Source: Antedon bifida
Taxonomy: Eukaryota; Echinodermata; Crinoidea; Comatulida; Antedonidae
Reading direction: 5' to 3'
Assembly: GCA_963402885.1 (NCBI GenBank)
Contig: OY727094.1
Coordinates: 13,766,501 to 13,830,500, forward strand
DNA length: 64,000 nucleotides
In this document: positions 5,471 to 36,415 of the stretch, one piece after another
Numbering within the stretch: the first letter of the stretch is position 1
Layout: each line of letters opens with the position of its first letter
Notes under the pieces: model-generated
Database searches by the model: none
The model's input: only the letters and a program-made list of their open reading frames with translations
Told to the model about the DNA's origin: nothing
Made by a program: the position numbers and the translations under genes

Positions 5471-6985
5471 TGAGGCAGTTTTAACTTATTTGATCTTGAT
5501 TTTTTTCTATATCCTGCCTATGCATGCTCTTTGATTTATATTTATATATATACAGTTACAGTATACACGTACAAAGTACAAATCAGTAAAATCATATAAA
5601 ATAATGGGAAAACAACTGTAATAAATTATCCTTTAATTACATATTTTAAGTATTAATTTCTAAGAAGAAAAAATAGGCTGAAATGTGTTATATTTTGTAT
5701 GTTCATCTACTTTTTAATACTAAAAGCTTGTTGTGATATAATAAAAGCTGATTGAAATCGAATTGAAAAATAGTGTGGTAAACATATATAGGCCCTAGAC
5801 ACCAAGGACTCAGACCATGCCTGGTTTTGTTTAGCCTAACTAGGTTTTCAACATGGGCCTAAGCACTATTACGAAGAGTTTTGTATGGTTTTCTTGCAAA
5901 TATTAATCATCTGTTTATAATTGTCGGTTTGACTGCCGTTATTAGACATTCAGCATTATTAGCCTAGCGTAGTATGTTGCTACCCCTCTCAGTCCTAACC
6001 TAGCTAGGAAGTATATTGAAAGTCAGTAGCTAACTACACTCTAGCTAAGCTAGAGCCTAGATAGGACGTTGGCTAGGCTAGCTATCTTTTAGCCTCTCTT
6101 CTCTAAACTGTGTTTCTAACAAACTATAATCATACACCATGTTGAGCAGGAAACAATTTTCAAACAAACATATAATTATCATCTTCTTTCGCTAAAATGT
6201 CTGTTTACAACGTTTGTTTAAGTAGCAAAATAAACCAAACTTCCTCGACTCGCGAAGAATACATGTGTTGATTTTTTACACACTTCTGCACTCCGTGCGT
6301 TATGGGGATTCCCTAATCTGTAATCATACTATGATTGGTGAAATACAATCACGTGGTACAGATTTTTGGATGTTGCGGATAATTTTGAACATGTTTCCTT
6401 CACGGGACCAAATCACCGATACATCCCGATGTATATCAAAATAGAGTACCAAAATCAATCGATAATTTCTCAAAATTGACACACATGATTGTGGAGAACT
6501 TTTGATATGTTGTTAAAAAATATTATATAAAATTAACATTGTAAATATGTTAAGAAATTCTAGACCCCTAACACTGGAACAAGATGAAACAATACGATTT
6601 ACTGCTTATGGCCTATTTGTACATTTCTTAGTTTTTAATCTTTCTCAGTTTACTTCAATCATTTGTTTTTTTCTATATAAGCTTTATAGTTTTTTTTAGC
6701 GGTTTATCATGTAAATATTTTGTAATTTTTTAAATGTTTATTCAGACTGTGCCTCGGATATAAAAGAGATACAATCAAGTTCAGTTCAAGTTACGGATGA
6801 GAAAATAAGCAGAACAAGATAGACCAGGTGGTGATTATGTCAAATGTCACAATTGCAACTAGTAGGTATTCTAGCGATCGGTGGAAAGAAAGATTCGTTT
6901 GTAAAACAGAAACCATAGTTCGAAGAATTACTAATTTGTTGATATCTTCTCCCGAAATAAACAATTATACCATTTACAACTACGA
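5471..6985. other. intronic stretch without recognised gene
   Basis: No exon, RNA gene or transposon coding sequence was recognised. Between about 5940 and 6110 there is a local excess of CTAG/AGCT tetranucleotides (for example gctaggctagctatc). The rest is AT-rich. Confidence 0.5.
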
Positions 6986-8826
6986 CTATTAAAGGGATCA
7001 CACTTTGTTGGGTCCACATTATGTGGTGTCCTCTTTAATAGGGGTTCTACAACTAAGCTCTATTAAAGGGATCACAATTTGTTGGGTCCACATTATGTGA
7101 TGTCCTCTTTAATAGGGGTTCTACAACTAACCTCTATTAAAGGGATCACACTTTGTTGGGTCCACATTATGTGGTGTCCTCTTTAATAGGGGTTCTACAA
7201 CTAAGCTCTATTAAAGGGATCACACTTTGTTGGGTCCACATTATGTGGTGTCCTCTTTAATAGGGGTTCTACAACTAACCTCTATTAAAGGGATCACACT
7301 TTGTTGGGTCCACATTATGTGATGTCCTCTTTAATAGGGGTTCTACAACTAAGCTCTATTAAAGGGATCACACTTTGTTGGGTCCACATTATGTGGTGTC
7401 CTCTTTAATAGGGGTTCTACAACTAAGCTCTATTAAAGGGATCCCACTTTGTTGGGTCCACATTATGTGATGTCCTCTTTAATAGGGGTTCTACAACTAA
7501 CCTCTATTAAAGGGATCACACTTTGTTGGGTCCACATTATGTGATGTCCTCTTTAATAGGGGTTCTACAACTAAGCTCTATTAAAGGGATCACACTTTGT
7601 TGGGTCCACATTATGTGGTGTCCTCTTTAATAGGGGTTCTACAACTAAGCTCTATTAAAGGGATCACACTTTGTTGGGTCCACATTATGTGATGTCCTCT
7701 TTAATAGGGGTTCTACAACTAAGCTCTATTAAAGGGATCACACTTTGTTGGGTCCACATTATGTGGTGTCCTCTTTAATAGGGGTTCTACAACTAAGCTC
7801 TATTAAAGGGATCACACTTTGTTGGGTCCACATTATGTGGTGTCCTCTTTAATAGGGGTTCTACAACTAAGCTCTATTAAAGGGATCACACTTTGTTGGG
7901 TCCACATTATGTGATGCCCTCTTTAATAGGGGTTCTACAACTAAGCTCTATTAAAGGGATCACACTTTGTTGGGTCCACATTATGTGATGTCCTCTTTAA
8001 TAGGGGTTCTACAACTAAGCTCTATTAAAGGGATCACACTTTGTTGGGTCCACATTATGTGGTGTCCTCTTTAATAGGGGTTCTACAACTAACCTCTATT
8101 AAAGGGATCCCACTTTGTTGGGTCCACATTATGTGATGTCCTCTTTAATAGGGGTTCTACAACTAAGCTCTATTAAAGGGATCACACTTTGTTGGGTCCA
8201 CATTATGTGATGTCCTCTTTAATAGGGGTTCTACAACTAACCTCTATTAAAGGGATCACACTTTGTTGGGTCCACATTATGTGATGTCCTCTTTAATAGG
8301 GGTTCTACAACTAAGCTCTATTAAAGGGATCACACTTTGTTGGGTCCACATTATGTGGTGTCCTCTTTAATAGGGGTTCTACAACTAACCTCTATTAAAG
8401 GGATCACACTTTGTTGGGTCCACATTATGTGATGTCCTCTTTAATAGGGGTTCTACAACTAAGCTCTATTAAAGGGATCACACTTTGTTGGGTCCACATT
8501 ATGTGATGTCCTCTTTAATAGGGGTTCTACAACTAAACTCTATTAAAGGGATCCCACTTTGTTGGGTCCACATTATGTGATGTCCTCTTTAATAGGGGTT
8601 CTACAACTAAGCTCTATTAAAGGGATCACACTTTGTTGGGTCCACATTATGTGGTGTCCTCTTTAATAGGGGTTCTACAACTAAGCTCTATTAAAGGGAT
8701 CACACTTTGTTGGGTCCACATTATGTGGTGTCCTCTTTAATAGGGGTTCTACAACTAACCTCTATTAAAGGGATCACACTTTGTTGGGTCCACATTATGT
8801 GATGTCCTCTTTAATAGGGGTTCTAC
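6986..8826. repeat. 74-bp satellite, about 25 copies, hairpin-forming
   Basis: The period measured between successive CTATTAAAG starts (6986, 7060, 7134) is 74 bp, and the array ends in a partial unit at 8826. Units are almost identical. I see essentially three variable sites: atcacac/atcccac, TGTGGTG/TGTGATG, and the ...aagc/aacc/aaac junction. Each unit contains CTATTAAAG and its inverse CTTTAATAG about 55 bp apart, plus an inner CCACATTATGTGG palindrome, so each can fold into a hairpin. The array sits in the 6.7-kb COR intron of module B. Confidence 0.97.
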
Positions 8827-9085
8827 TGTAATGCACAAGCATATTTGCTTTTATGTATTAGAATATACAGTAGTAAAATTTAAATGGTGTAAATTTGAAT
8901 AAATTTGATTCTATTTTAAAATTCATTAACTTTCATTATGGTGACAGTATATATATTAGGCTCCAGGACAAAAAGTTTTCTTTGTGGTAGACATTACATT
9001 TTTAAGCTAAATTCATCACATAAAAACATTATCACAATGTTTAGGTCAGATTATTCACAAAAGTATAGTGCATAATATTACTAAC

Positions 9086-9271
9086 CTGAAGCTTGGGATC
9101 AATAACTGTGATGATTGTTTTAAACTTGTCAACTACTCCCATCAAATCTATAACAATTTTTTCTTTGAGGATCTTGTCATCTGGGTAGAACAGAATCTCG
9201 CCAATGTCATGTAAGTACTCCAGAAGCACTTGGTTATTGATGATCTTACAACGGACAAGTAAATCATTTAT
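9086..9271 (-). CDS. module B exon: COR-N helical region
   Basis: A 186-nt phase 0-0 exon (acceptor ccttctag, donor gttagt) encodes 62 residues beginning INDLLVRC with LLEYLHDIGEILFYPDD. 'a..yLhd.G.ilyf.d' is a hallmark of COR domains. The counterpart in module A is exon 31575-31769 (AIEYMNDIGIILH), 195 nt. Confidence 0.82.
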
Positions 9272-10038: not shown

Positions 10039-10284
10039 CTCAGACGTTGGTAGATACAGTTCTTTCCTTAGCTGTTGTATTTCTTGCATTACTTGCAGCC
10101 ATTTGATTGGCAAAGTGCGAATCATCATCTGGACAAATTTTTGTATTTGTAGAATGATTTTAGAAGCACCGCTCTTATCAAATGAGAAACTGTTTTCTAT
10201 TGTAAATACCTCTCCTTGATACACCATGTCCTCAAATGGTTTTCCTTCCAGGGCTTTCCAAAGTATATTCTCTATTTCCTTTAC
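10039..10284 (-). CDS. module B exon: Roc-COR junction
   Basis: A 246-nt phase 0-0 exon (acceptor tattttag, donor gttaga) encodes 82 residues with a central run FVQMMIRTLPIKWLQVMQ. Helices ending in 'lP..W..l...l' mark the start of COR, where the GTPase hands over to the dimerisation domain. Exon 32336-32578 of module A (243 nt) has the matching MVREVPVKWVNLQESL. The lengths differ by exactly one codon. Confidence 0.82.
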
Positions 10285-10712: not shown

Positions 10713-10871
10713 CCTTTGTTGTCTTTCTTGTTCAGTTTCACCAAGGCTCTCATAATGTGTACCAATCAGCATTATTTTGTTTTTCTGTCCTTTTCTTACG
10801 TTTACAAAAACTGAACGAATCCAAAACAGAATGGATTCAAGATTTGTCATTCTATGTTCATACATTTTTCT
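10713..10871 (-). CDS. module B exon: Roc G4 region
   Basis: A 159-nt phase 0-0 exon (acceptor gatatag, donor gtacat) encodes 53 residues including ILFWIRSVF and IMLIGTHYESLGE. In Roc domains the G4 base-specificity motif sits here as T-K/H-x-D; module A has ATHVDKL in the matching exon. Module B has THYE, with Glu in place of the Asp that reads the guanine base. This may alter or weaken nucleotide specificity; that is inference from GTPase family rules. Confidence 0.82.
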
Positions 10872-11123: not shown

Positions 11124-11213
11124 ACTTGTTGGATCCAGAACTTTAGCTGGGGCATTAAGATCTTCATTCAGGTTAAATACCACACATACAACAGCATAAG
11201 ATACCATAAATAT
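11124..11213 (-). CDS. module B exon: Roc strand after DxxG
   Basis: A 90-nt phase 0-0 exon (acceptor ctcctag, donor gtaagt) encodes 30 residues, IFMVSYAVVCVVFNL then DLNAPAK. It has exactly the same length and position as exon 33999-34088 in module A (FFLTNTVSYCVAFNV ... DEPAK), which strongly supports both. It forms the hydrophobic strand after the G3 motif. Confidence 0.85.
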
Positions 11214-11610: not shown

Positions 11611-11876
11611 CCGTTGTATCACATGGTAAATTGGCTGACCTCCAAAGTCCCAGATATTCATAATATTCAATTTAGACTCGTTGCTATTCCCTTTAGACTC
11701 TTTGCTAAGTTTCTTTTCAACTTTGTTCAAGATACTGTCAGGTGGTTCTGGTTTTCCTTGGTCTGTTTTGTGATAAAAATCAAATATTGGTTTCAATTGA
11801 TAGAAGTTGATAGAATTTTCAGGAGTAAGATTTTTACTTTCAAATGTTAAAAATGTTTTCATTAATAATAAGATTT
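11611..11876 (-). CDS. module B exon: Roc G3 (WDFGGQ)
   Basis: This exon of about 266 nt (phase 1 in, 0 out; donor gtaaat is clear) encodes a Lys/Ser/Glu-rich stretch and then IWDFGGQPIYHVIQR. WDFxGQ is the diagnostic G3/Walker B motif of Roc domains. The acceptor I chose (ttaaag at 11877-11878) fits the phase but lacks a pyrimidine tract, so the 5' border is uncertain by some tens of bases. The module A counterpart is 35653-35783 (IWDYAGQLDYYITHR), 131 nt; module B is about 45 residues longer before the motif. Confidence 0.75.
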
Positions 11877-14203: not shown

Positions 14204-14266
14204 CATTTTTCGTTTCATGCTTTCTTGCTGATGCTTCTGTATCTTCACTCTGGCTTCCATTTTCTT
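14204..14266 (-). CDS. module B mini-exon E1 of the Roc insert array
   Basis: A 63-nt exon (acceptor attgcag, donor gtaaac), phase 1-1, encodes EENGSQSEDTEAS then a basic end (RKHETKN). It is the last member of a series of homologous mini-exons with the pattern E-x-N/I-R/G-S...E-S-A-x-K-x-E-T. This copy has lost the MKQET core (RKHET), and is the most diverged at its 3' end. Confidence 0.72.
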
Positions 14267-14981
14267 CTGCAATTACTACAAAAAAATAAATTGCACAAAA
14301 TGATTAAATTATTTGCACACATTTTTTTTTTGTAAACTTTGTTTTCAACCACCTTTTTTTAACTTTTCGTTTAAAAACTCTGAACTTTCAAGAAGTATGT
14401 AGTTGCAAAAGTGTAGATTCGACATAAATTATTGTTATGTAATTAACTGGATTAACAAATACTGGATGAAATTATTTTCATTACTGTTTTTTATTTATTA
14501 TTATTATTATTATTATGCTTATGTGTTTAAATGGCGTATATTTCCAGAAAATACATTTTATGAGAAAAAGTCAAGGTGCTTAATGGTAAAATTATTTTTT
14601 CTTATTTGCAAATTTCTGGTCACTATTAATGTTCTCTGGGCCAGGGTCTACTTTAATGTTCTTTTTCATAGTCAAAATTAACCATTAGATGTATAGAATT
14701 TGACTTGAGACAGTTTTATCATCGATCAGCGACTAAAAATAAAACATTTCCTTTTTTTTGTTTTACCACATTCAATTTCCTGCTTGTTGATGATTTGATT
14801 GTATCCTTCATTTGTTACAGTACAATGTTTTTAAAATGTAATTTAATAAATATACAAACATTCTGTTCATTTTAATATTGTATCAAAACTAAGAATAATA
14901 AACTCAATACTGCGTATAAATCATGTGACTGATAAGTGCAAAAGGTAATCTTTCTTGGTTTATAAATTGGACAAGTTTTAC

Positions 14982-15059
14982 CAGGTTCTGTTTCCTGCTT
15001 CATTGTTGCTGATTCTCCTGTGTTTTCTCCCTTGCCTTCACTCTGGCTTCCATCTTCCC
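14982..15059 (-). CDS. module B mini-exon E2
   Basis: A 78-nt exon (acceptor ag after ttctag, donor gtaaaa), phase 1-1, encodes GEDGSQSEGKGENTG followed by ESATMKQETEP. It is longer than its neighbours by four or five codons (KGEN and an extra T), which shows that the copies change length in whole codons. Confidence 0.75.
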
Positions 15060-15327
15060 CTAGAACAATAATTTGGTTTTTTAATGTCAATATGTTTTGT
15101 TTTTGTCTATTATATAATTTGTTGCTGTAATTAATTAAAGTGTTTTATGCAATCTTACAGTATCCCTTGTTTATTTATACAGTACAATGTTAAATATATT
15201 TAATATATTACTTAAAAATCAAAATATTAAACCCAATACTGCATAGAAATCATGTGACAGACCAAGTGCAAAAGATAATCTTTCTTAGTTAAAAAATTGA
15301 AAAAAACAAAACAAGAAGATGTTATAC

Positions 15328-15390
15328 CAGGTATTGTTTCTTGCTTCATTGCTGATTCACGTGTGTCTTCCTTATGGCTTCTATTTTCCT
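15328..15390 (-). CDS. module B mini-exon E3
   Basis: A 63-nt phase 1-1 exon (acceptor ttttag, donor gtataa) encodes EENRSHKEDTRESAMKQETI and P. It is close to E4 and E2 in its 3' half (ESAMKQET). Confidence 0.75.
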
Positions 15391-15540
15391 CTAAAACAAT
15401 TGTTAACAAAAATTTAAAAATGTTTTTTTTTTCAATATCATTGTTAGCCTTTTACATTATATAACTTAAAATTTAGAATATTGAGTTTCCTTTATGCTTG
15501 TATCAAATTTCTTACTATCTTTTGCTGTAATTACCTGCTC

Positions 15541-15850
15541 CAGGGAGTTAGTTAGTTCTCAAAGTTTTTATCCAGGAATCTCACCAAATTTGGACGTAGT
15601 GATCTACTGTATGTCTCAAAATATTGCTAGAGTTGGATTATGATATTGACAGTGTAGGGTCAAAATTCAAGGTCGCAATTCACAAAATACAGTACTATTT
15701 ATCATAATTTACTGTCTACAGGCCACACTTTTTATCCAAATCTTTCGAAAAACTGACACAATTATCTATGATCTATCATCTAAAGGTAGATTAGTTTTGA
15801 AGAGCAATTAAGGTCAAATATTTGTTTATTATATTTCATTGTGGCCAACA
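15541..15850. repeat. diverged copy of the SINE body found at 60.4-60.8 kb
   Basis: tttttatcc.....tctcaccaaatttgg and the nearby gtagtgatctact, ggtcaaaattcaaggtc correspond to the repeated core at about 60470-60560 (tttttatccgattctcaccaaatttgg ... aggtcaaggtcac). No tRNA-like head was seen here. Confidence 0.5.
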
Positions 15851-15982
15851 GTTTCCATAATAACCTTGAGAAGAACTTGACCATAAGTTTCAGAATAAAA
15901 TGTCACATCACAAAACAATTAAAATTAAATGTGATTAAAAAAAATATTTCTTGGTGTAAAAATTGGAAAAAAAATGTTTTAC

Positions 15983-16045
15983 CAGGTTGTGTTTCCTGTT
16001 TCATTGCTGATTCTCCTGTTTCTTTACTCTCGCTTCTAATTTCCC
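15983..16045 (-). CDS. module B mini-exon E4
   Basis: A 63-nt phase 1-1 exon (acceptor tttttag, donor gtaaaa) encodes GEIRSESKETGESAMKQETQ and P. It shares ESAMKQET with E3. Confidence 0.75.
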
Positions 16046-16351
16046 CTAAAAACAATTGTTAAAAAATGTCAAAATTGTTTTTTTTTGTCTATATTTATAA
16101 TTTTTAGTCCTTTAAAATTTACAAAGTTGAGTTTCATTCATTCTTGTATCCAATTTATTATTTATACAGTACATACACAATGTTTTAAAACATTTAACTA
16201 CACAAATTTATAACATTCTGTTCATTTTGAATTGTATCAAAACTGATAATAATAAACCCAATATTGTATAGAAATCATGTGACTATGACTAATTCCAAAA
16301 GGTAACCTTTCTTGGTTCACAAATTGAAATAAAAAACAAGAAGATGTATAC

Positions 16352-16417
16352 CAGATTCTGTTTTCAGCTTCATTGCTGAAGCTCCTGTAGAATTTTCTTC
16401 TCTTTGGCGTATTTCCT
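16352..16417 (-). CDS. module B mini-exon E5
   Basis: A 66-nt phase 1-1 exon (acceptor ttttag, donor gtatac) encodes EEIRQREENSTGASAMKLKT then ES. The central part (QREENSTGA) differs from the other copies, whereas both ends are conserved. Confidence 0.75.
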
Positions 16418-16649
16418 CTAAAACAATTGATTAAAAACATTTTGTTTATTAAAAAAGGTAATGTTCTAAAAAAAAATGTTAAATTGATATTTGTTACACT
16501 TTTTAAAATATCGTATTGTAGGAATTATTGTCTTGTTGGCAATAAGTGAAACTGACAATAATAAACCCAATAGCATAGAAATCATGTGACAGACACAAAA
16601 GGTAACCTGTCTTGATTTGAAACTGAATTTGTTCTATTTCATTTTTTAC

Positions 16650-16718
16650 CAGGTTCCGTTTCCTCCTTTGTTGCTGGTAGCCCTCCGGAGTCTTCTTTTT
16701 TCTGGCTTCTATTTTCCT
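16650..16718 (-). CDS. module B mini-exon E6
   Basis: A 69-nt phase 1-1 exon (acceptor tttttag, donor gtaaaa) encodes ENRSQKKEDSGGLPATKEET then EP. It is the first of the clearly homologous copies in transcript order. Confidence 0.75.
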
Positions 16719-16980: not shown

Positions 16981-17079
16981 TAGGTTCAGTTTTCGGCTTT
17001 TTTGATTCTTTTCTTTGGTTTACTTCTTTCAATTTTTCCACCATGACATCAGCAACAGCATCTTCATATTTTTCTAAAG
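16981..17079 (-). CDS. module B exon: helical linker before the mini-exon array
   Basis: A 99-nt phase 1-1 exon (acceptor ttttaag, donor gtaaat) encodes about 33 residues. A likely amphipathic helix (LEKYEDAVADVMVEKLKEVN) is followed by a basic tail ending KPKTEP. The tail resembles the KQETEP ends of E2-E6, so this may be the founder of the array. Its 3' border depends on phase agreement with the exon upstream (leftover T) and downstream. Confidence 0.7.
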
Positions 17080-17843: not shown

Positions 17844-17944
17844 AAATATCTTGCAACGTTTCTTTCAATAATTTATTAGTTGCATCTTGCATGCACACCA
17901 TTGTTTTAACCATTGCATCAGTTATTTCATACACTGGATTAAAT
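17844..17944 (-). CDS. module B exon: Roc switch I, copy b (alternative)
   Basis: This 101-nt exon (acceptor gtcatag, donor gtaagt), phase 2 in and 1 out, encodes FNPVYEITDAMVKTMVCMQD and ATNKLLKETLQDI. It is a tandem duplicate of 17986-18089, and both lie directly after the P-loop exon. The matching module A exon (36315-36415, also 101 nt, phase 2-1) has STDGIVTTTVF, so the ITDAMVKT stretch holds the G2/switch I Thr. Because the phase is asymmetric, joining copy a to copy b shifts the frame to an early stop. The two are therefore expected to be mutually exclusive. Confidence 0.75.
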
Positions 17945-17985
17945 CTATGACAAAATGACATTATCTGAATAAAGTGAATACTTAC

Positions 17986-18089
17986 AAATATCCTGCTTTG
18001 TTTCTTTCAACATTTCTTTATTAGTTGCATCTTGCATGCACACCGTTGTTTTAACCATTGCATCAGTTATTTTATACACTGGATTAAAT
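17986..18089 (-). CDS. module B exon: Roc switch I, copy a (alternative)
   Basis: A 104-nt exon (acceptor attcatag, donor gtaagt), phase 2 in and 1 out, encodes FNPVYKITDAMVKTTVCMQD and ATNKEMLKETKQDI. It continues the Roc domain after the P-loop. It differs from copy b by one extra codon and a handful of substitutions, two of them close to the putative G2 Thr (K/E before ITDAM, T/M after VKT). The spacer between the copies is 41 nt (17945-17985), likely too short to be removed as an intron. Confidence 0.8.
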
Positions 18090-18517
18090 CTATGAATGAA
18101 ATAATAATCCATACTGAAATATATGAATGTTGATAAATTTCATTCAAATCACTTCCAAATACAGTAAATCGGTAGGACTTATGTACAGTTGGTGTTTATG
18201 TGCATTCACAAAAAATATAACGTTCCTTCATTTTTTGAATATTGGAGGAACTCCATTCATAGTTTAAAGAACAGAATTCATGAGTTTTAATAGTTCAATT
18301 AAAACCACAGTCAATGTACTTTCACAATCCAACCTGCATTAGTGTTGGTGCAAATTGATATTTTAGGTTGTTTTTGTGGAAGATAATTTCCTGGTGACAT
18401 TTTTTAATTTTTGTTTTGTATTTTTTTAAAATTTGGATATACTATCCGAAATAAAAGAAATTAATGAATATATAACATTTTGTAACCCTGTTTAAGCAGA
18501 AATGTAGGTTTGCTTAC

Positions 18518-18683
18518 GGTTTTCTTAATAAGGAATCTATTGTGGAGGTTTTTCCAACCTTTTCAAGTCCTACAAAAATAATTCTTCCTTGATCAAACTC
18601 TGTTTTCCCTTCTTCAAGTGCATTGTGAAATGCTTTCACTGTTTCAGGTCCTCGTGCCAATATCTCCAATGGAACATTTATAT
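18518..18683 (-). CDS. module B exon: Roc P-loop (GLEKVGKTS)
   Basis: A 166-nt exon (acceptor ttttttag, donor gtaagc), phase 1 in and 2 out, encodes 55 residues. It starts with INVPLEILARGPETV, continues through a helix and reaches IIFVGLEKVGKTSTI. GxxxxGKT/S is the Walker A/G1 motif that binds the phosphates of GTP. The exon has exactly the same length and phases as the P-loop exon of module A (36865-37030; LLVPAEIRARG ... GKEGAGKTS). Its 5' phase matches the end of the DED exon at 26174, giving ...NILFN-D-INVP. Confidence 0.86.
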
Positions 18684-20021: not shown

Positions 20022-23000
20022 TTATGAATGGGGTAACCAGCCATCCTGAGGATAAAAAAGGTATATTTTTGCACAAATTTGCATTAAATTACCCATTCTT
20101 TTTGTTGGCAGCCGTCTTTCTCGAGAGACAATAGGTATGCGCCCTCTATCCATCATTCGGTGCAGGGTCACAGCGCCTGCTGTGACTAAGAAGTCCGATT
20201 TTTGAGCGGCATGATTTGTCACATTTTGGGCAGATGTACGTCGGCTCCTGGTCGGTTGGAGCAGAGGATGCTCTCTCCTTTCTACGTTTCTTAAGTAGCG
20301 TCCATTTCTCGTCGCGTCCACTCTCGCTTGTTTGGACACACATCTTGATAGTGGATCTCTCCACATACTGCGATCGGAGGCAACAGCCTCCCAGTTTGTG
20401 ACGTTTGTGTTTCCCGACTTCAGATCACGCTTGCATACGTCTTTAAAGCGTAACATGGGCCTTCCTTTGGGTCTAGTTCCAGTGACAAGCTCACCATAGA
20501 GTAAGTCCTTGGGTATTCTTCCGTCATCCATGCGCCTCACATGGCCCAGCCATCGAAGGCGTCTCTGGGTAAGCAGTGAGTACATACCGAGTTAGAACGG
20601 TCTTGCTTGAGACATGATCCTGCCATTTGATGCCGAGTATCCTTCTCAGACAGCGCAGATGAAATGAATTTAATCTGCGCTCTTGGCAGATGTAAAGCGA
20701 CCATGATTCACTGCTGTACAATAGGGTGCTTAGGACACAAGCCTGGTAGATCTTCATCTTGGTGTTAATGGTCAGCATGCGGTTTTTCCAAACCTTATCT
20801 GTTAGGCGAGCCATGGCTGATGTCGCTTTTCCGATCCTGATGTTGAGTTCGGCGTCCAATGAGAGGTTACTGGAAACAGTGGAACCAAGGTAAGTCAACT
20901 TGTCCACCACCTCAAGGGTATAATCGCCAATTTTGATCATTGGCTGCATCGTGACTTAGAACGTTCGTTTTCTTAAGGCTGATGGTAAGGCCAAACTCCT
21001 CGCATGCATGTGAGAAGCAGTCAATGAGGCGCTGGAGTGCTTCTACACTGTGGGCTGTGATGGCAGCGTCATCAGCGAAGAGCAACTCTCTAATAAGTAG
21101 AGTAGGTGGATTGTCGAGCTCTTCCATTATGGGGAGAGAATCTATGCACTCAATGGCTGAGTCGGTGACAATGTTTTCTCTCAAGTAGAGTTGTTGGTAA
21201 TGCTCTACCCATCTCTCCATCTGCTTTCCACGATCAGTTATGATGGTACCAGAGGCGGTCTTTAATGGTGTGATCTTCGTTGCACTAGGTCCAAAGGCCT
21301 TTTTTATACCAGCGTACATGGCGCCAGTGTTGCCGTGGTCAGCAGAGAGTTGAATATCTTGACAGAGGTTCAACCAGTATTGGTTGGCACACTGTCGAGC
21401 TATCCTTTGAGAGTTATTTCTAGCTTTACGAAGAGCCTCTAGTGTTCTTTCTGAAGGGTCTCTTTTGTAGTCAATTAGCGCTGCACGCTTTGCCTCAATA
21501 GCTGGCTCCATCACAGAAATTCCTGATTCAAACCAATCGGTATAGATGGCATCACGAATATGAGCCCATCTCGTTTCAGAGTTGACTGTTGGACAGTCTT
21601 TCAGCATTTCGTCGATGGTTTGGGCAAAACGAGTGCACAGATCTGGCAGATTGGTCTTAGCTATGTTGATGCATGGGCATCCTATGTGCCTGGAGCGATG
21701 AATTTGTTTTGGTTGGAAACACACTGTGCTGCGCACCATAGAGTGATCAGTATCGCAGTCTGCACTATGGTAACTGCGAGTGATGTTTACATCATTTAAG
21801 TAAGATCTACGAGTGATGACGAGATCGAGTTGGTGCCAGTGGTGAGATCTTGGATGTCGCCAGGACACTTTGTGCTGAGGCTTGGTGGAAAAGAATGTGT
21901 TGGTAATGCAGAGGTCATGATAACTGAAGAGCTCCAGAAGCCTCTGGCCATTCTCATTTAGTTTTCCTCCACCAAAATGACCAATGCTCCTGGACCAAGA
22001 GTGATGGTCAGATCCCACACGGGCGTTGAAGTCGCCAAGCAAATACAGATGTTCTGTGGCTGAGATTCCTCTGATGGCAGAGTCCAGCTCTTCATAAAAC
22101 TCATCTTTAGACTCGGGTGTTGAGCAAAGATTTGGTGCATAGATGCTCAAGATGTTTACTGTGCCCGAAGATGTTGATAGGCGTAGTGAGAGGATTCGGG
22201 CGGTGCCATTGGATGGTGGTTCGACTGATGCCACAAAAGAGTTACTATAACAGCGAACCCACTCCATGGAGTCGGTTGGTTAGGTTCCAACCCCTGCCAA
22301 AAGAACGTGTAGTCCCTTTCTCTTATGCTGCCATCCGAGGGGAGTCTTGTCTCTTGTAATGCAGCGATATCGATGTTGAACCTCTTGAGCTCACGGTTGA
22401 TGATAGCCGTTTTTATTGAGTCGTTGGTCGTTCGTGGGTCGTTTGAAAAGCCAGGACACATGGTCCTGACGTTAGTATTCTTTAATCTTTTCTTTAATTT
22501 TTTGCCTGGTGCAGTAGTTACAGTGTGCTTGTCGGAAGAATCCTAAGCTCCAAGCACCCATTGAAGCAGGCAGACTGTGGCGGGTCAGCATCTTACTGGC
22601 CGAGGGCTGTTCGGCTTGAGGCGGGCGATAGCTGACCAGTGGGACTGCGATGGTCCCTCCCACCGTCGGAGGCAACCCGTAGCGCCTTGACCTACGTCAA
22701 TTGGTCTTGGCTTATCACTCATGAACTGCTGTCTCCCGTGTTGATTTTAGCTGTTTTTTACAACAGCACTGAAGTGACCTCTCCAGGGCGCACGCCTGGG
22801 CGAAGAAAAATATGGGAACACTGGATGCCCAGTCAGCAGAATCCCCCTCTCGGCCTTTATCGATGAAGTCCATAGGAGAGCAGAGCAACACGTATGGTAC
22901 CAGTTTGGCTGCAGAAGCTGCCGGAAGGAGATCGAGTCGATGTTCAAAACTGCCTTAGGGGCTTCACTCCGGATTTATCCTTGAGGTTTACTCCTGAAGC

Positions 23001-27820: not shown

Positions 27821-27897
27821 CTATACAAAAAACAGATATATATTAGTCATAATCAAGAGTACAGTATCACAATTGATTCAATACACTGTTCTGCTAT

Positions 27898-28630
27898 GGT
27901 CTATGTCAGTTGTGTGTTGCTTTCTATATCTATATGATGCATCAGATGCTATCTATTGTACAATGAGTCTAGTATAGTGGGTAGATAAAGAGGCTACAAA
28001 TACATAGACATTTAAAATGGTGTATGTCAGTTGTTTGTTGCCTTCCATATCTACATGATCCATCAGATGCTATCTATTGTACATTAATGAGTCTAGTCTA
28101 GTGGATAGATAAAGAGGCTACAAAAACAGAGATTTAAAATGGTCTATGTCAGTTGTTTGTTGCCTTCCATATCTTCATGATCCATCAGATGCTATCTATT
28201 GTACATTATTGAGTCTAGTCTAGTGGGAAGAGAAAGAGGCTTCAAAAACATAGAGATTTAAAATGGTCTATGTCAGTTGTTTGTTGCCTTCCATATCTAC
28301 ATGGTGTATCAGAAGCTATCTATTGTACATTAATGAGTCTAGTCTAGTGGGTAGATAAAGAGGCTACAAAAACAGAGAGACATTTAAAATGGTGTATGTC
28401 AGTTGTTTTTTGCCTTCCATATCTACATGATCCATCAGATGCTATATATTGTACATTAATGAGTCTAGTCTAGTGGATAGATAAAGAGGCTACAAAAACA
28501 TAGAGATTTAAAATGGTCTATGTCAGTTGTTTTTTGCCTTCCATATCTATATGATGCATCATATGCTATCTATTGTACATTAATGAGTCAAGTGGGTAGA
28601 TAAAGAGGCTTAAAAACATAGAGATATGGT
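27898..28630. repeat. about 121-bp tandem repeat, six copies
   Basis: Units begin ggtctatgtcagttg or ggtgtatgtcagttg at about 27898, 28018, 28140, 28264, 28390 and 28515. Each contains gctatctattgtaca and gataaagaggcta. Copies are imperfect (point changes and short indels). The array lies in the intron between mini-exons T4 and T3 and shows no coding signal. Confidence 0.92.
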
Positions 28631-36314: not shown

Positions 36315-36415
36315 CATTTACACCTTTTATCTTTTTCCATTGACTACAATCCTTCTTTGCTTGAAACACTGTGGTTGTAACGATTCCATCTGTGGATTGT
36401 TCTGCAGAATTGAAT
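36315..36415 (-). CDS. module A exon: Roc switch I (single copy)
   Basis: A 101-nt exon (acceptor ataatag, donor gtgaga; phase 2 in, 1 out) encodes FNSAEQSTDGIVTTTVFQ then a Lys-rich end. STDGI fits the G2 region with its conserved Thr. It has the same length and phase as the duplicated exons 17844-17944 / 17986-18089 in module B. Confidence 0.8.

Follow-up and report, generated by a model that had tools for sequence, protein, structure and literature searches.

Exons of alpha-tropomyosin are made mutually exclusive by steric interference. The same is described for exons 4a and 4b of OGDH, where the accessible text of the source gives about 50 nt between a 5' splice site and the branch point as the threshold for simultaneous use (PMC7969005). 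Among human mutually exclusive exon (MXE) clusters, 57 of 629 (9 %) have potential steric interference, according to the accessible part of that study (PMC5740500). Local exon duplication is recorded, again in the accessible text, for preGNAI exon 6 and preGNAQ exon 5 of amphioxus G-alpha and for exons 7 and 8 of vertebrate GNAO (PMC5896119). Brown-algal ROCO genes carry duplicated, alternatively spliced exons and are proposed, in the available portion of the report, to be immune receptors (PMC11378527). Mutually exclusive exons are a known kind of arrangement, GTPases included, and alternative LRR exons are known in brown-algal Roco genes.

The window, meaning the whole stretch of DNA that was analysed, comprises 64,000 nt of Antedon bifida (assembly GCA_963402885.1, contig OY727094.1, positions 13,766,501 to 13,830,500, equal to C7:13766501-13830500 in the contig labels used below). 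It holds a gene, designated Roc B, in which two similar candidate switch I exons, c1 and c2, stand in tandem. The features of this gene, and one module A exon used for comparison, are as follows.

18518..18683, minus strand: P-loop (G1) exon of Roc B, with GLEKVGKT, phase 1 to 2
18090..18113, minus strand: candidate 5' extension of c1 behind an upstream TTTCAG acceptor, in frame, adding 8 residues (MDYYFIHR)
17986..18089, minus strand: c1, first candidate switch I exon, FNPVYKITDAMVKTTVCMQDATNKEMLKETKQDI, 104 nt, phase 2 to 1, ancestral-like copy
17945..17985, minus strand: spacer between c1 and c2, 41 nt, c1 donor flank joined to an array-type acceptor flank
17844..17944, minus strand: c2, second candidate switch I exon, FNPVYEITDAMVKTMVCMQDATNKLLKETLQDI, 101 nt, phase 2 to 1, derived copy
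16981..17079, minus strand: linker exon, phase 1 to 1
14204..16718, minus strand: series of short homologous linker exons, phase 1 to 1 (candidates 16718-16650, 16045-15983, 15390-15328, 15059-14982 and 14275-14204)
11611..11762, minus strand: switch II (G3, WDFGGQ) exon, phase 1 to 0, about 6 kb downstream of the pair with the linker exons between
11124..11213, minus strand: Roc exon IFMVSYAVVCVVFNLNED, phase 0
10713..10871, minus strand: G4-like (GTHYES) exon, phase 0
10039..10284, minus strand: next exon, phase 0
9041..9271, minus strand: open reading frame with a weak COR-A match (PF16095, E 1.4e-4, 22.3 bits, below the cut-off of 35.3)
36316..36414, minus strand: module A switch I exon segment with STDGI (at 36396), single copy

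The first-pass annotation had placed tandem homologous exons of 104 and 101 nt, both running from phase 2 to phase 1, after the P-loop exon, and its coordinates proved right to the base. BLAST aligned the c1 and c2 blocks over 133 positions with 90.2 % identity (E 5.5e-47), far above chance, and the copies differ by 8 bases and 2 indels; AG and GTAAGT flank each of them. The P-loop exon lies 428 nt before c1 and leaves two bases, c1 and c2 each take one base and leave one, and the next exon (17079-16981) fits. Splicing of both copies into one transcript, for which an early stop had been predicted, does run into a stop (eighth codon, counting from the junction), and so do a transcript lacking both copies and one that retains the 41-nt spacer. 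Only the choice of a single copy keeps the frame, which is then open for 361 codons with c1 and 360 with c2 (P-loop exon, one copy, linker 17079-16981, one repeated linker, switch II, G4 and the next exon). Judged against the single-copy paralogues described below, the duplicated unit takes in about 17-20 nt of sequence ahead of the exon and about 24 nt of the intron that follows, with its junction inside the spacer, and the best explanation would be that a block of about 145 nt containing the switch I exon underwent head-to-tail duplication in one array-type Roco gene.

Relative to c1, c2 encodes K6E, T15M, M26L with loss of E25, and K31L; these differences flank the G2 Thr and occupy the stretch after it, while ITDAMVKT is identical. 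A further apparent change at K24 of c2 was discarded as an effect of gap placement, the Lys being kept. The proposal of two effector-loop versions is weakened by the identical G2 motif and by the fact that nearly all change since the duplication fell in c2; with four substitutions and one deletion between the copies, two effector loops are possible, and the differences could alter partner binding.

The OGDH exons, like c1 and c2, are in tandem and leave less than about 50 nt between the 5' splice site and the branch point (putative for c2); their usage is proven in OGDH and predicted here, and the intron set in the accessible text spans 60-500 nt against our spacer of 41 nt (PMC7969005). The human clusters likewise consist of neighbouring exons alike in sequence and length and in the same frame, whose joint inclusion shifts the frame, but they rest on splice-junction reads, whereas c1 and c2 are known from sequence (PMC5740500, accessible part). 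In G-alpha, as may be the case here, duplication of a GTPase exon gave alternative partner surfaces, and one amphioxus copy evolves faster; G-alpha is heterotrimeric and not Roco, and the accessible text does not name switch I (PMC5896119). The brown-algal genes are, like Roc B, Roco genes with duplicated exons, but there the repeated exons encode LRRs and not the GTPase; 'mutually exclusive' and 'switch' have 0 occurrences in the main text (PMC11378527). The first-pass annotation knew of no described Roco protein with alternative switch I exons, and a search of the open-licence literature likewise found none among the papers listed, judged by title and abstract opening.

Assignment of the gene to Roc, also made earlier, is borne out by Pfam Roc (PF08477), which scored 45.8 bits on the joined exons with c1 and 44.4 with c2 (cut-off 27), and by the G1, WDFGGQ and GTHYES motifs. 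As fetched, the sequences of the array loci L010-L028 contain a match to the P-loop exon in 15 of 19 cases (84.9-86.2 % identity). The switch II exon is an addition to the first-pass annotation; its start at 11762 was judged from the homologous acceptor in six array paralogues, five of which have an in-frame stop upstream of that acceptor, and a pattern search for the switch II region in nine paralogues returned no match. The short linker exons at 14204-16718, all of phase 1-1, could be freely included or skipped, and small exons seem to have been duplicated repeatedly in this gene. The linkers lengthen the stretch from switch I to switch II by roughly a hundred residues, an extension that, to our knowledge, usual Roc domains lack.

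That the pair encodes switch I, as had been claimed, is likely from its place directly after the P-loop exon and before WDFGGQ, from the ITD Thr (invariant in 36 of 36 rows) and from a weak alignment to the Chlorobium Roco. A PDB search, with a query built with a longer switch II exon, matched Roco chains from bacteria with E values between 1.3e-5 and 1e-3. In 3dpu (Chlorobium Roco) PFNPVYKIT is aligned over TFDPKESQT, a stretch worth only 6.1 bits alone, the strong part of the alignment being WDFGGQ on WDFGGQ; in 4wnr the stretch (12.5 bits) stops before the candidate G2 Thr.

The 315.6-Mb assembly (27 contigs) was searched for related exons. With the c1 protein (E up to 1) 48 matches were obtained, representing 46 loci: 23 on C7 (12.07-17.82 Mb), 13 on C10 (11.74-16.14 Mb) and 10 more distant, with the close-array loci of C7 and C10 all on the minus strand. 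The module A exon, which had been noted as a single exon with STDGI and is so, gave 53 further loci on C7, C15, C8, C16, C10 and C14. The genome thus has at least 99 switch I-like loci, seven of them with E above 0.1 (six from the c1 search and one from the module A search; two of the seven also matched at the DNA level); these counts are lower bounds, as only the best candidates were scored, and a strongly diverged second copy might escape. Two matches within 1 kb were found at 2 of the 99 loci, namely the pair in the window and one at C7:13152.8 kb. All 34 single-copy members of the close array were aligned; each has one 104-nt open exon with ITDAMVKTTVC unchanged (mean pN/pS 0.32), and no second switch I copy was detected in them at E < 1e-3 within 9.8 kb for 19 loci and 1.2 kb for 15, weaker second matches (E up to 1) numbering 0-3 per locus. 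From these two counts, 2 of 99 loci and 34 of 34 paralogues, we infer that the pair is a lineage-specific tandem duplication.

The Roco array as a whole is very large (C7 11.6-17.9 Mb and C10 11.7-16.1 Mb), also includes 13 module A-type loci on C7, all on the minus strand, and often has neighbours of the same type some 150-300 kb apart. Plus-strand matches to the myosin head lie about 17-40 kb from 9 of the 23 window-type Roco copies on C7 (for example at 14173279-14177161, 15303725, 16381658 and 17792574), and the repeat unit of the array may hold a Roco and a myosin gene. Elsewhere, a myosin gene at L048 (C9:20613250-20613950, minus strand) carries two homologous exons in tandem (102 and 90 nt), separated by 84 nt, and each of them terminates in NDNSSRF, which we take to be the myosin switch I motif; this makes a second candidate in this genome for exclusive exons at a loop that binds nucleotide.

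The second locus with a pair, L009 (C7:13152.8 kb, 632 kb away), is 97.7 % identical to the window locus over about 10 kb and carries the same pair with the 41-nt spacer free of any change. The exons were therefore duplicated before the gene was, provided that L009 is not a misplaced haplotype; if it is one, the pair is present on both haplotypes. An otherwise invariant Cys is lost from c1 of L009 (C to Y) and kept in its c2. A 30-nt insertion with an in-frame stop had suggested that L009 is dead, and this was rejected when the exon start at 11762 placed the insertion in an intron. In a tree of the exon and donor flank, the four copies (c1 and c2 at each locus) group together with ultrafast bootstrap 89 and the c2 sequences with 98, and the branch since duplication is near zero for c1 and 0.078 for c2. 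Polarised against the 34 paralogues, six site changes are specific to c2 and none to c1; another site points towards c2, a further one has changed in each copy, and c2 holds the two indels. A hand-worked relative-rate chi-square is 6-7, for 6-7 polarised substitutions in c2 against none in c1. The ancestral sequence was retained in c1, and nearly all later change fell in c2.

One point is odd. The 20-nt acceptor flank of c2 has the sequence most frequent in the array, shared by 17 of the 34 single-copy paralogues, whereas that of c1 has diverged from the array, and the intron upstream of c1 gave no alignment with those of the nine close array members compared. Since simple tandem duplication is expected to yield two similar acceptors, the c1 flank either changed fast afterwards or was replaced. 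The diverged flank counts against exclusive splicing, and we have no clean explanation for it. The TTTCAG acceptor before 18113, which the first-pass annotation had not listed, is common to L009 and was not seen in the aligned array paralogues.

On exon anatomy, mutually exclusive splicing is the best reading, about evenly poised between right and wrong, and an unused spare copy is a serious rival. The exons are adjacent, similar in sequence and length and of the same phases, their joint inclusion or skipping is unproductive, and the gap between them (17985-17945), reported earlier as 41 nt and correctly so, is shorter than the published limit of about 50 nt, which refers to the distance from 5' splice site to branch point, the branch point here being putative. 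Any c2 branch point inside the spacer would be less than 41 nt from the c1 donor, so that U1 on that donor and U2 on the putative branch point would not both fit. A spacer below the steric threshold makes joint splicing unlikely and leaves a choice of copy. The spliceosome would join the P-loop exon to c1 or to c2 and then to the linker exon, giving two Roc isoforms with a common G2 Thr (ITDAMVKT) and the differences listed above; c1 would be the likely main, ancestral form and c2 the newer variant. Exact lengths obtained for two introns elsewhere in the genome were 74 and 84 nt, too small a sample to set a minimum. The Roc scores of both joined forms, the persistence of the pair with its spacer at L009 and the array-type acceptor of c2 speak for this reading, and the rarity of the pair, at 2 of 99 loci, speaks against it.

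The c2 exon retains the frame, both splice sites and 21 of the 22 residues invariant in 35 array rows, the changed one being Thr15 to Met; with 6-8 random substitutions, 2.8-3.8 altered invariant residues would be expected on average, and the probability of at most one is 0.034-0.127 by substitution number and kappa. The simulations placed substitutions at random and ignored indels, so that these P values are only a guide. Selection is evident on c1, and for c2 the residue count amounts to weak evidence of constraint. With nearly all the polarised change, and a dN/dS between c1 and c2 of 0.48 (8 changes), c2 may evolve free of constraint. It is possible, with a probability clearly short of even, that c1 is the sole switch I exon used and that c2 is a neutral leftover of the duplication, skipped because c1 is nearer and complete. 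The near absence of change in c1 since the duplication agrees with this, as do the single exon of all 34 array paralogues and a chance of 0.75-0.84 that c2 would stay stop-free by luck, but c2 has both splice sites, an in-frame length and nearly all invariant residues, and it was c1 of L009, not c2, that lost the invariant Cys.

In another reading c2, with its array-type acceptor, would now be the main exon, and c1 would be declining or used via the upstream acceptor before 18113. The departure of the c1 flank, not the c2 flank, from the array form and the in-frame TTTCAG 24 nt upstream of c1 both speak for such a change, which we consider improbable, the conserved exon being c1. A switch to unproductive splicing, in which use of both copies or neither brings a stop and lowers expression, is very unlikely: every choice tried other than a single copy does end in an early stop, and the gap does not hinder skipping of both copies, but 41 nt is below the steric limit and shorter than the measured introns, a very small sample (n=2). 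Least credible of all is an assembly error that created the second copy, a possibility raised by the first-pass annotation. The copies are 90 % alike and close together, and the window locus and L009 differ by about 1 % in bases, so that one could be a misplaced haplotype; against this stand the 8 base and 2 indel differences between the copies, and an assembly slip was rejected on finding the same pair with the same 41-nt gap assembled at two loci 632 kb apart.

Other features of the window were recorded. Upstream of the P-loop exon, at 20022-22542, the minus strand contains retroelement frames, with an Exo_endo_phos_2 match over the cut-off (34.9 bits) and an RVT_1 match under it (23.9 bits), and with a GC content of 45-47 % against 26-33 % in neighbouring bins. 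Self-alignment showed tandem repeats at 6975-8826 (period about 74 bp) and 27896-28625 (period about 123 bp). A death-effector-like look of 26717-26205 had no support in Pfam on the enclosing frame or in PDB.

With mutually exclusive splicing as the preferred reading, we propose, tentatively and at somewhat less than even confidence, a Roco GTPase in whose transcript a steric lock of 41 nt would force the choice of one of two switch I exons, yielding isoforms with different partner or nucleotide behaviour. The two exons would be a newborn exclusive pair of a single lineage within an array of 36 or more sister genes, 34 of them single-exon. If both copies are used, the locus would provide an alternative switch I, of which we know no earlier case in Roco, the LRRK2 family, and a rare view of a newly born exclusive pair, for which the 34 single-copy sister genes of this genome could serve as controls. 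If c2 is unused, the locus would show that MXE-like anatomy arises readily in arrays rich in tandem duplication, a warning for prediction from sequence only.
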